Below, one piece after another: positions 3,220 through 58,683 of a stretch of 64,000 nucleotides of DNA. The notes under the pieces are model-generated. The model was not told the origin of the DNA, did no database searches, and saw only the letters and a list, made by a program, of their open reading frames with translations. Position numbers and translations under genes: made by a program. The number at the start of each line of letters is the position of its first letter. Positions within the stretch are counted from its first letter, which is position 1. Origin of the DNA: Chryseobacterium gleum (GTDB lineage: Bacteria > Bacteroidota > Bacteroidia > Flavobacteriales > Flavobacteriaceae); contig CAMDGB010000007.1 of assembly GCA_945897915.1 (NCBI GenBank), positions 19,117-83,116 of the forward strand, in the 5' to 3' direction.

Positions 3220-3819
3220 TTAATTATTTATATTCTGTAATTGTTTTTCTAATTCTATTATTCCAGCTGACGTTGCCATCGCACGAATATGGTATTCTAA
3301 TGCTTTGTATTCTAATTTACTAGCTTCTTTCTCTAAGGCTGTATTTTCGCTAATGCTGAATATTAATGTGTAATAAAACTTAACATAATTTTCAACATCT
3401 ATAGTTTCTAGATATAATCCTTCTGAAATTCCTTTAAAAATGTTATCCCGAAAACACCCTTGACATATTTCAATTTGATAGCCAACTACTTTTTGATATA
3501 CTTCTGGATAATGTTTTTTCAATTGATAAACAGGAGATGTTTCGCTATATTTGAACATTTCTTTAAACATTCTTCTTATTTGAAAATTTTCTTCGATAGC
3601 ATTAAATTTTTTCGCAACGATTGATTCAATGATTTCTATAACTTCTTTATGAACCAATTGTGTGCTTTCTTCAATAAGTAATTCTTTGTTAGAAAAATAT
3701 TTGTAAATTGTTTTTTTAGAAATTCCCATTTCACGGGCAATATCGTCCATAGTAATGCTCTTGAAACCAAATTTCAAAAACATTTCTTTTGCTTTGACTA
3801 CAATATTTTCTTTAATCAT
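3220..3819 (-). CDS. TetR/AcrR family transcriptional regulator
   Basis: N-terminal HTH: AKEMFLKFGFKSITMDDIAREMGISKKTIYKYFSNKELLI. Confidence 0.95.
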   Translation of the reverse strand: MIKENIVVKAKEMFLKFGFKSITMDDIAREMGISKKTIYKYFSNKELLIEESTQLVHKEVIEIIESIVAKKFNAIEENFQIRRMFKEMFKYSETSPVYQLKKHYPEVYQKVVGYQIEICQGCFRDNIFKGISEGLYLETIDVENYVKFYYTLIFSISENTALEKEASKLEYKALEYHIRAMATSAGIIELEKQLQNINN

Positions 3820-41467: not shown

Positions 41468-41549
41468 GCGGGTATGGTGAAATTGGTAGACACGCCAGAC
41501 TTAGGATCTGGTGCCGCAAGGTGTGAAGGTTCGAGTCCTTTTACCCGTA
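41468..41549 (+). tRNA. tRNA-Leu (anticodon TAG)
   Basis: GCGGGTA...TACCCGT acceptor, ACTTAGG anticodon loop, GGTTCGAGTCC T-arm, long variable arm. Confidence 0.95.
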
Positions 41550-54785: not shown

Positions 54786-54865
54786 GCCCGGATGGCGGAA
54801 TTGGTAGACGCGCACGACTCAAACTCGTGTTCCTTGGAGTGTGGGTTCGATTCCCACTCCGGGTA
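54786..54865 (+). tRNA. tRNA-Leu (anticodon CAA)
   Basis: GCCCGGA...TCCGGGT acceptor, CACGA-CTCAAAC-TCGTG anticodon arm, GGGTTCGATTCCC T-arm. Confidence 0.95.
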
Positions 54866-56462
54866 CTGTATGAGACTTATCAAGTTTTTCTTGATAAGTT
54901 TTTTTGTTTTCAAGCTCATAATTATCTGAAAAAGAACTAGTTAGTTCAAATAAAGGACTGGTTTTTGAGGTTAGATATTCTCTATTTTTTAATGAGTAGC
55001 GTAAACCTTCAGGAAACAACAATTTTTGAAATACCCTCTTTTGGTTATACTCCAAACTTTCATAGAATTTAGAGGGGTTTACAGCAATTTTTGCGAAATA
55101 TTTTATTCCTTTTTCGTGGTTAGATTTTTTTGTTGGCAAATTTTCAATTTCTGCTATTTTTTGATTGTATTGTTCTTTTAGTTTTTGATTTTGTCTTTCA
55201 AAAATATCTTTTGAAATTTCATTTATTGCAAATCGATATTCCATTAAATCCATTTTCTCTCTCAAATCATTTATTTCTGAAGTCAACATTCTTTTCTTAT
55301 CTACAGAATGGTCTTTTTCATGTTCCAATATTAATTTTAATTGTTCAATGAATAATTCTTTAAGATTGTCATTCAGTTTTAAATTGTCAATTATTTTTAA
55401 AAATGTTGCATTAACGCCATCATTATAAGAACTCGATTTTGTTTCTGCATTTGCTGTTTTATTACAACAATTGCATTTGTAATAAAATAAATTTTTCTTT
55501 TTGTTTTTATAAGAGGTCATTGTATTTTGACAGTCTCCACAAATTAAATATTTTGGAACCAATGGTGTTTCAATTTTTCCACTTAACTTTTCAATACCTA
55601 TTTTAGAAGTACTATTAATGATTTTTTGAAGTTTTTGATATTCTACTTTTGATATTAATGGTTCCCAACTTCCTTTAATATATTTTTCATCTAAAAGGGA
55701 ATTGCATATTCTTCCAGCATAAAATTCATTTTTCCACATATTTGTCATGGATTGATAAGCCATTCTGATTCCTTTTGCAGCTAACCATTCAATTATTTGT
55801 TTATCTGTGTATGATTCATAAATTTTTTTTCTAAAAGCTTGTTTAAAGATTAACCCTTCCTTATTTACTTTTATCTCTTGTTTGGCTTGAACAAATTCAT
55901 GCTTTTTTACTCTTGGTCCATAATGGTCATAACCTTTAGGTGTTCTTCCAAATAATTTACCATTATTTAATGCATTTATTAATCCTGGAATTATGGTATC
56001 TTGTCGATTAAAATTTTCTTTTTGCGCATAAAGTAGTTGTGTAGAAAACTCGTTTTCTGCTCGCTCATTAAAAGTATTATGCCCTGAGCTGACAGAATAT
56101 AAGAAAACATTGAATTCTATTCGAAGACTAACAAATAATTGAATATGTTCTGCGCCAGCTCTTCCAAATCGACTTGGAGACCAGATTAAAATTATCTTTG
56201 GTCTTTTAGAATAGTGGGTTTTCTTTAGCTTGTTAATTAGTTCTTTAAGCGTACTTTGAGTATTAATTTTTTTGGAACTTTCGTATTCTGCATCAAATTC
56301 TTCTGCAATATTTAGTCCGTTTTCATTTGCAAAGTTTTTTATTCTGTTAACTTGAGTTTCTATACTCCCATTGTTCATGAATTGCTCTTTGGTTGAAACT
56401 CTGGTATATGACCAAACAGTTGTTCCAAAAAAGTCTTTAAGTTGAAGGTTTTTAGTTTTCAT
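54819..56462 (-). CDS. Large serine recombinase (resolvase + recombinase + zinc-ribbon + coiled-coil); C-terminal end reads through tRNA-Leu
   Basis: WSYTRVSTKEQ catalytic Ser motif, LIWSPSRFGRAGAEHIQ, GRTPKGYDHYG, CGDCQ...CNCC zinc ribbon, LLFPEGLRYS; last residues VGIEPTLQGTRV are antisense tRNA-Leu. Confidence 0.93.
   Translation of the reverse strand: MKTKNLQLKDFFGTTVWSYTRVSTKEQFMNNGSIETQVNRIKNFANENGLNIAEEFDAEYESSKKINTQSTLKELINKLKKTHYSKRPKIILIWSPSRFGRAGAEHIQLFVSLRIEFNVFLYSVSSGHNTFNERAENEFSTQLLYAQKENFNRQDTIIPGLINALNNGKLFGRTPKGYDHYGPRVKKHEFVQAKQEIKVNKEGLIFKQAFRKKIYESYTDKQIIEWLAAKGIRMAYQSMTNMWKNEFYAGRICNSLLDEKYIKGSWEPLISKVEYQKLQKIINSTSKIGIEKLSGKIETPLVPKYLICGDCQNTMTSYKNKKKNLFYYKCNCCNKTANAETKSSSYNDGVNATFLKIIDNLKLNDNLKELFIEQLKLILEHEKDHSVDKKRMLTSEINDLREKMDLMEYRFAINEISKDIFERQNQKLKEQYNQKIAEIENLPTKKSNHEKGIKYFAKIAVNPSKFYESLEYNQKRVFQKLLFPEGLRYSLKNREYLTSKTSPLFELTSSFSDNYELENKKTYQEKLDKSHTVPGVGIEPTLQGTRV
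54875..54905 (+). terminator. Terminator after tRNA-Leu(CAA)
   Basis: ACTTATCAAG-ttttt-CTTGATAAGT followed by T-run; overlapped on the opposite strand by the recombinase ORF. Confidence 0.85.
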
Positions 56463-56616
56463 CTTTTATTTGTTCTAAAATTAATTTTGTAAATTCATAA
56501 AGTTGTAATGAAAGTTCATATAGAATTTCCTCGTCAACGTTTTTTAATATTTTTTTAATAACTTCTGGTTTCAGTAATTGACTATTACATATATTTTGAT
56601 TTGAATACTGGCCCAT
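56452..56616 (-). CDS. 54-aa hypothetical ORF overlapping the start of the serine recombinase (translationally coupled?)
   Basis: MGQYSNQNICNSQLLKPEVIKKILKNVDEEILYELSLQLYEFTKLILEQIKDEN*; stop overlaps ATG of recombinase (gATGAAAACTAAa); below the ORF track size cut-off. Confidence 0.6.
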   Translation of the reverse strand: MGQYSNQNICNSQLLKPEVIKKILKNVDEEILYELSLQLYEFTKLILEQIKDEN

Positions 56617-56678
56617 ATCTTGATAAAGATATAACGGGCTGATTCTTCAGGGACCGATTCGGTTTTACATTTGGCATA

Positions 56679-57533
56679 TTACTTTGATTTTATCGTTATT
56701 TTATAATTGCCTTGCGGTCTTGGCTCTATCATAATTTTAGAACCCAATGGTAATTTATTTGTAAGAAAAAACTTAGCTAACTCTTCGGGTTTTTTATGTT
56801 CTTCGGTAATTTTGATGATTTTTGGTGAATCACCTTGTTGAACTTCAATTTCTAAGAGTTTAGGTTTGTCAAAAAACAAGACTCTTCGAATTTGGTTTTC
56901 TATAGAAGATAAATACTCCAAATCTGTATTGCTCTTTCCAATTTCAATTCCAACCAATTTTGAAATTAGAGGTAAAAATGGAATTACTATCAAGGTTTCA
57001 CCAAAATACAAATTGTTCAAATCCGCGGTTAAACCAACATTGCTAAAATTAAAAGAATGTTCGCCTGTCTTAGAGCAATAAATCAATGAAACAACACTTC
57101 TATTTGAAATCAAACAACTTTTAAATGCATCTGTAAAAGGATTTATTTCTTTTCTGAAAATTGTATTCATTACGTGATCAGATTTTATTAACTCTTCAAT
57201 TGACTTTTTTTCAGATAAATCTAAATTTTCATAAATAAGTGCTTCTTTTAAAACTCCATCTGCATATTTTTTTTTAAATGGAACTACCCAAATGTTATTT
57301 GAAAGACTTTCTAATTTTTTAGTGCTTACACCTATATTTGATAATTCATTAATAATTAATATCCAAAGAGCCTCAGACATATTCATATATCCTTTTTTTT
57401 CTTTTACGAAAAAAGGCAATACGTTACAATTTCTCCAATAATTAAATTGTCTTGCAGATATGCTTAGATTTTCAGGTAAAAAGCAATCGTTTGAAATCAA
57501 TCGGCCTATTTTTATTCTCTCATTTTTGTTCAT
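56679..57533 (-). CDS. MerR-like DNA-binding protein with uncharacterised C-terminal region
   Basis: LSISARQFNYWRNCNVLPFFVKEKKGYMNMSEALWILIINELSNIGVSTKKLESL resembles MerR winged HTH. Confidence 0.7.
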   Translation of the reverse strand: MNKNERIKIGRLISNDCFLPENLSISARQFNYWRNCNVLPFFVKEKKGYMNMSEALWILIINELSNIGVSTKKLESLSNNIWVVPFKKKYADGVLKEALIYENLDLSEKKSIEELIKSDHVMNTIFRKEINPFTDAFKSCLISNRSVVSLIYCSKTGEHSFNFSNVGLTADLNNLYFGETLIVIPFLPLISKLVGIEIGKSNTDLEYLSSIENQIRRVLFFDKPKLLEIEVQQGDSPKIIKITEEHKKPEELAKFFLTNKLPLGSKIMIEPRPQGNYKITIKSK

Positions 57534-57603
57534 AAATCAAATTATTTTTTGTAATTTAAGTAAATAGAAGATAACCAGTTGGTAAATATATAAATTTTTT
57601 ATA

Positions 57604-57633: not shown

Positions 57634-58074
57634 ATGATAAAGAAAAATTTAATCAAGAAAAGGTTTTCAAATAGAACCTATCCACGAAAGTTATGTAAAA
57701 AACCCGAGTGTAACATGGAATTTGTTCCAACAGATAGTCGACAAGTATATTGTTCTTCTCAACATCGCATCGATAGCAACAATGATAAACGAAAAGTGAT
57801 TGATAAAATTGAAAGTGATTTCAACAAATTAGCAAGAAATAACAAAAGAATATTAATAAAAATATCAAAAAGTTTAACCTATCAAGTGACTGGAAAAGTA
57901 AATGCCTCGGTTTTAGAATATGAAGGTTATGACCATTCCGTATATCACCAAAGCATTAAAGACAATATAACAAAAAGGGAGGTAAAGTTTTGTTTTAATT
58001 ACGGCTTAACTTTAACAGAATCAGATCAACATTTCTTTAACATAATAATAGATAACAATGACAACATATCGTAA
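57634..58074 (+). CDS. Small protein with zinc-finger-like motif, hypothetical
   Basis: CKKPECNMEFVPTDSRQVYCSSQHR (C-x4-C-x13-C-x3-H arrangement), basic. Confidence 0.7.
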   Translation: MIKKNLIKKRFSNRTYPRKLCKKPECNMEFVPTDSRQVYCSSQHRIDSNNDKRKVIDKIESDFNKLARNNKRILIKISKSLTYQVTGKVNASVLEYEGYDHSVYHQSIKDNITKREVKFCFNYGLTLTESDQHFFNIIIDNNDNIS

Positions 58075-58432: not shown

Positions 58433-58554
58433 GTCAATAGAAATCGATAAAAATCAATTTAAATAATTGTATTTATTTACAAATCAATACGTAACTATTT
58501 GTAATTTTTAATTGAAAATCGTCAATAAAAGTGTGCTGATTTAGTTTAAAACTT

Positions 58555-58605
58555 AAAGCGTATTTTAAAAATTATTAAATTTGAATTATTAACTAAATAC
58601 GCTTT
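58555..58605. repeat. Inverted repeat AAAGCGTATTT-N29-AAATACGCTTT
   Basis: Perfect 11-bp arms at 58555-58565 and 58595-58605. Confidence 0.8.
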
Positions 58606-58683
58606 TAGGAAAAAGTCTGCTTTAGTTTGAAGACACCTATAATAGTTAAATAATACTATTAAAAAAAAATATTAGACTATAAT

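Follow-up and report, generated by a model that had tools for sequence, protein, structure and literature searches.

Within the window (the whole 64,000-nt stretch of DNA analysed), the gene of a large serine recombinase lies antisense to tRNA-Leu(CAA) and ends inside it (Table 1). As the first-pass annotation had claimed, the reading frame runs through the terminator (hairpin at 54875 to 54899 and T run at 54899 to 54905, both within the 547-aa ORF) and stops in the tRNA body. Some 45 coding nucleotides plus the stop codon are shared with tRNA-Leu(caa), the protein tail, VPGVGIEPTLQGTRV followed by the stop, being antisense tRNA-Leu sequence.

Table 1. Features of the locus (positions in the window)
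Feature	Position	Strand	Remarks
tRNA-Leu(CAA), integration target	54786..54866	+	ARAGORN
Large serine recombinase CDS	54819..56462	-	547 aa; the tRNA contains the last ~14 residues and the stop
T-loop TCGAAC, putative attB half-site motif	54845..54850	-	9 nt beyond the core
Core GTACCCG, antisense of the tRNA 3' acceptor strand	54860..54866	-	Near-identical elements diverge within the equivalent core
Rho-independent terminator of tRNA-Leu(CAA), attributed to the element	54875..54905	+	Within the recombinase CDS
Internal TCTAACC (family consensus TCGAACC)	54969..54975	-	125 bp from the T-loop motif
284-aa protein	56679..57533	-	Without Pfam match; conserved ahead of the recombinase gene across related elements
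Palindromic operator-like AACCAGTTGGTAAA (family TTTACCAnnTGGTAAA) before the 284-aa gene	57573..57586	.	Conserved in homologous elements
Small Zn-finger-like protein, divergent from the 284-aa gene	57634..58074	+	Weak NinG/treble-clef similarity, below cut-off

The protein shows the domain order of large serine recombinases, a Resolvase catalytic domain (PF00239) with the catalytic serine followed by a Recombinase domain (PF07508), both above the Pfam cut-off. Zn_ribbon_recom scored 20.7, below its cut-off of 25.3, but the zinc cysteines C308, C311, C330, and C333 are invariant among close relatives and the A118 C-terminal domain was matched, in keeping with a zinc ribbon. R21-V22-S23 is invariant.

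After the 284-aa gene, the element carries two small genes on the other strand, and the small Zn-finger-like protein is probably cargo. The distal end (attR) was found neither in the window nor in scans of G000, G062, and G090; the tRNA 3' end is not repeated elsewhere in the window, and scanning the same three genomes with GTACCCGG returned coding matches and the known attL only. In a search of G000 and G062 for the displaced host terminator, one G000 match proved to be an ordinary gene terminator. The stretch from 58516 to 58610 resembles a terminus of an IS3-like element from G114, and may mark decay or loss of the distal attachment site. Another tRNA-Leu of the window, at 41468, has the anticodon TAG.

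Spread of the recombinase family and its targets

Homologues were sought in relatives, in genome contigs, in 300 Flavobacterium genomes, and in 248 genomes of the same order. Relatives of the recombinase were present in 132 of the 300 Flavobacterium genomes, while 89 of the 248 matched the profile, some of these matches being weak or partial serine recombinases. In 87 homologues the position of the C-terminal landmark was assignable; four of these are cut by contig ends, which left 83 readable. Seventy-six of the 83 run antisense into tRNA, tmRNA, or relic tRNA sequence: ARAGORN recognised an antisense-overlapping tRNA or tmRNA in 70 of the 87, and reading of the sequence added L183 (tRNA-Gln), L178, L161, and L016 (tmRNA), and L005 and L134 (decayed tRNAs). 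Three more (L015, L158, and L017) run into a junction with another element, L015 and L158 ending at an arm of it and L017 at a 32-kb tyrosine-integrase element that had inserted at the same tRNA-Arg. The other four form two lineages (L008/L009/L020 and L188) that have no tRNA at the recombinase end and also lack the internal TCGAAC motif described below. The targets comprise tRNAs for Leu (caa, taa, and tag), Met, Val, Asn, Arg (four anticodons), Gln, Glu, and Ser, as well as tmRNA. The family is thus widespread in Flavobacterium and its relatives, and the enzyme gene almost always enters a tRNA. From this distribution and from the junctions described below, we infer that the family catalyses integration.

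A complete tRNA was kept at the 70 occupied sites recognised by ARAGORN (two further sites have decayed tRNAs), and at all 70 a terminator hairpin lies within the recombinase gene. The frame stays open past the tRNA end in 81 of 82 closed homologous ORFs, whereas the other two frames over the same 105 nt contain stops in 172 of 172 cases. That the frame continues into the tRNA is more than chance. An accident of annotation, in which the recombinase functionally ends earlier and the frame happens to continue, would fit the final residues, unconserved except for those derived from the tRNA, and the low confidence of the C terminus in the structure model; it is refuted statistically by the counts of frames reaching the core and, with a spacing that is constant even among diverged homologues (see below), is barely credible. 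The recurrent antisense-tRNA peptides at recombinase C termini (GIEPT, GLEPVT, and similar) are, on the reading preferred here, target-derived tails of real open frames. C-terminal residues shared by homologues at unrelated loci had been named beforehand as a sign against integration next to the tRNA; G-x-E-P is indeed shared, but does not refute it, because each homologue ends in the T-arm of a different tRNA.

Some sites deviate in detail. The recombinases of G048:C6 (L005) and G002:C22 (L134) end antisense to a tRNA gene whose 5' part has degraded or is absent. The open frame of L183 (G433:C3), 914 codons in all, spans the whole tRNA-Gln antisense and extends into the gene next to it. L037, L136, and L137 have tRNA-Asn genes in tandem, two or three of them, next to the recombinase end; these are possibly footprints of repeated integration.

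The tRNA 3' end as attachment site

The integration at tRNA-Leu(CAA) that had been proposed was borne out by relatives L073 to L078 and L080 to L082, in which the same locus is empty and homology to the window stops at 54866 to 54870. The terminator is crossed by the ORF, as also proposed, but is not the host's. Empty tRNA-Leu sites in the genus of the window mostly share a common terminator, CCTCTCAGxAATGxGAGG, and each occupied site carries another; that of the window is near-identical in a sibling (L071) and in L072, a species keeping only a remnant of the recombinase. In G026 and G028 (L013/L015), which have near-identical recombinases, the DNA matches across the terminator and as far as the acceptor end of tRNA-Asn, ...TAGCTCCCC, past which it diverges, into the tRNA in one and into another arm in the other. 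The near-identical elements L146 and L158, at tRNA-Val, diverge likewise within the core. Since such elements agree through terminator and core, the terminator comes with the element, as do the final ~7 nt of the tRNA. In F. aquatile, the acceptor end beside the element is altered to TACCCAG, the variant of the element. The comparison thus shows that the element carries the terminator and a copy of the last ~7 nt beside the crossover, and that the tRNA remains intact and terminated upon integration. The crossover itself would fall near 54863/54864, an approximate dinucleotide position, between V533 and P534; P534 to V547 and the stop codon, the last ~14 residues, would then be encoded by the host, in line with the earlier proposal of a host-encoded C terminus.

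The position of the T-loop motif relative to the 7-nt core distinguishes two kinds of sites. The gap between core and TCGAAC measures 9 nt at 54 distinct tRNA sites and 14 nt at 6 sites whose element-borne arm has no tRNA attached. Only two matches had any other spacing within 0 to 30 nt, and shuffles gave ∼0.08 per spacing. The modelled zinc-domain positions on attB and attP of serine integrases differ by a 5-bp shift (PMC3783163). The same shift was found here both in the offset from the core (9 versus 14 nt) and in the distance from a conserved Thr codon to the motif, which is 126 nt, i.e., 121 + 5, in recombinases joined to the P' arm. These offsets identify the tRNA end as attB and the 3' end of the recombinase gene as part of attP. 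Judging from the spacing, the T-loop TCGAAC is probably read by the zinc domain; relative to the crossover, the motif sits 5 bp closer in attB sites than in attP-type ones, as for other serine integrases. The T-loop being common to nearly all tRNAs, the family has specialised on many of them and on tmRNA. Serine integrases, which usually have one site each, can in this way serve nearly every tRNA gene via the near-universal T-loop, and the large natural set of recombinase/attB pairs with predictable half-sites would serve both genome engineering in Bacteroidota and studies of specificity change.

We therefore interpret the locus as the attL end of an element whose insertion was the work of a large serine recombinase with a tRNA 3' end as attB. 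The explanation as a whole, comprising this attB, an element-borne terminator and core, an attP overlapping the gene, and a putative accessory site (see below), is highly probable. Sites with the order terminator-core-P' are present in G026, G028, and G035, and could be attR or the ends of recombinase-less cassettes. The displaced tRNA-Asn terminator gave four matches, all of them terminator-core-P' sites and none with an intact tRNA, which makes them ambiguous attR candidates. No full attL/attR/attB/attP set from one strain pair was found among the genomes compared, and neither a circular form nor close relatives were seen in phage, plasmid, and viral (IMG/VR) collections.

Several neighbouring arrangements were also recorded. 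L030 (G046:C2, 18000 to 34000) has at least four tandem attP-type sites, at 3380, 4893, 6966, and 7555, which precede a tRNA-Val with a decayed recombinase; each has its own terminator before it, and between successive sites lie one or several genes, among them those for an HxlR regulator and a pirin. These units may be cassette-like and mobilised in trans. In G013:C1, a 32-kb tyrosine-integrase element, flanked on both sides by 13-bp GTGACCTCGGCAG repeats, lies between a serine-recombinase element (L017) and the common target tRNA-Arg(tcg). A tandem repeat array with ∼65 to 75% similarity occupies 6.3 to 8.2 kb of G026:C9, inside the tRNA-Asn element.

A second TCGAAC motif within the recombinase gene

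The distance from the conserved Thr codon (T498 in the window) to the T-loop motif was 121 nt in 60 of 65 cases, 122 nt in four, and 120 nt in one, and the residues in between are hardly conserved. Around this codon there is a second TCGAAC. Counted without any profile over 51 non-redundant cases, its distance to the T-loop was 125 bp for 37 and 126 bp for 4. The codons that form it are strongly biased: the Arg codon is CGA in 49 of 50 (11% background), the Thr codon is ACC in 44 of 60 (17% background), and the wobble base before the Arg codon is T in 57 of 61. Moreover, CAAAC occurs internally in three of the four recombinases that target a TCAAAC T-loop and in 1 of 46 others (P = 0.0008). 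Many members also have GTTCGA 43 bp upstream of the internal motif, forming the inverted pair GTTCGA-N37-TCGAAC.

Motif and spacing could be explained with no DNA site by constraint on the protein, that is, by an Arg-Thr pair ending the zinc domain and a tail of fixed length. The Thr is conserved in 84 of 87 homologues and closes the last strand of the zinc domain in the structure model, and the segment stays translated. However, the use of CGA and of the preceding T, together with the covariation with the T-loop, speaks against such a constraint, and length changes of 3 nt are absent whereas frame-breaking changes of 1 nt occur, which argues for constraint on DNA rather than on protein; we regard the protein explanation as rather unlikely. 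Folding of the internal pair GGTTCGATATT...AATATCGAACC as a hairpin in the recombinase mRNA is very improbable: the halves are complementary in many members, but in only 45 of 87 is the left one within one mismatch of GTTCGA, and variants such as GTTCAA are uncompensated on the right.

Fixed distance, forced codon choice, and covariation instead suggest that the internal TCGAAC is an accessory recombinase-binding site. We propose tentatively, as having slightly less than an even chance, that the attachment site extends into the recombinase's own gene and that the codon-embedded site, at a fixed ∼125 bp from the crossover-side motif, acts together with the tRNA-side att site to control direction or synapsis. 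Such a site would force the recombinase gene to read into the tRNA and would be, to our knowledge, the first res-like accessory site of any serine integrase. The gene-embedded motif at fixed spacing makes the use of accessory DNA sites by some serine integrases testable.

Recombinase tails and comparison with known systems

With the 3' end of the gene within the attachment region, the ORF must cross terminator and core, and its end would depend on the partner sequence: the host would supply the last ~14 residues in the integrated form, and the element's other arm 20 to 30 in a putative circle. At real junctions, the recombinase ends in ...QLAPHSIVLSNRFKNDLVKLYFLHESIYNPKNNF (L015) and ...LMVEQRGVVSNYFNSDLRLLQKK (L158). 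Fusing each element's own arms predicted the circle tails ...APPIGESYNFNAMVIYLTIRKTMS for G026, with an arm deduced from its terminator-core-P' site, and ...LVAGNFEKSNQFLVDYYKIVDYADLQAII for G011, with an arm deduced from a decayed tandem junction. The C terminus thus depends on what lies beyond the crossover, as the first-pass annotation had anticipated, and an attP lies within an ORF with two protein ends, as in mycobacteriophage BPs.

Its further suggestion that protein form is functionally coupled to integration state found no support. In BPs, which shows integration-dependent immunity, the attP-containing ORF encodes a repressor with a degradation tag (PMC4557955), and that precedent, with the tails differing at real junctions and in predicted circles, would favour a switch by which the integrated form would be more or less stable or active than the circular one. 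Against it, the tail sequence depends on the tRNA target and is unconserved across homologues, a frameshift affects it in 5 of the 65 cases measured, with other reading frames in three lineages (L010/L174/L040, L014, and L155), and no sign of function was found; residues after ∼508 look disordered in the weak structure model (pLDDT, 62; pTM, 0.31), and no common degradation tag was noticed among the few circle-type tails. We consider such a switch improbable.

No description of tRNA-targeting serine integrases with an ORF entering the tRNA was found in a literature coverage that largely left out subscription journals, and this is thus weak evidence of novelty. The Riemerella 10K island was discarded as a related case, its integrase being a tyrosine integrase in the paper. 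Tyrosine-integrase genomic islands at tRNAs likewise regenerate the tRNA 3' end; here, in contrast, there is a serine recombinase, the core is ∼7 to 9 nt, the terminator is also replaced, and the integrase reads into the tRNA. The likeness to BPs is an attP inside an ORF with a protein form that depends on integration state, but in our case the protein is the integrase itself, with no known effect.

With large serine integrases (A118/LI, phiC31, and TP901-1), the family shares domain order, catalytic motif, zinc cysteines, and the 5-bp attB/attP offset, and the solved C-terminal domain of A118 aligns up to the conserved Thr. It differs from them in its family-wide use of tRNA and tmRNA 3' ends, with specificity apparently in one half-site, and in a gene that overlaps the attachment site and holds an att-like motif at fixed spacing. 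Serine integrases have been described as having no need for auxiliary DNA sequences (PMC3783163); the fixed spacing between crossover and a second recombinase-like motif rather recalls the res sites of the Tn3 family, with the accessory role being putative here.
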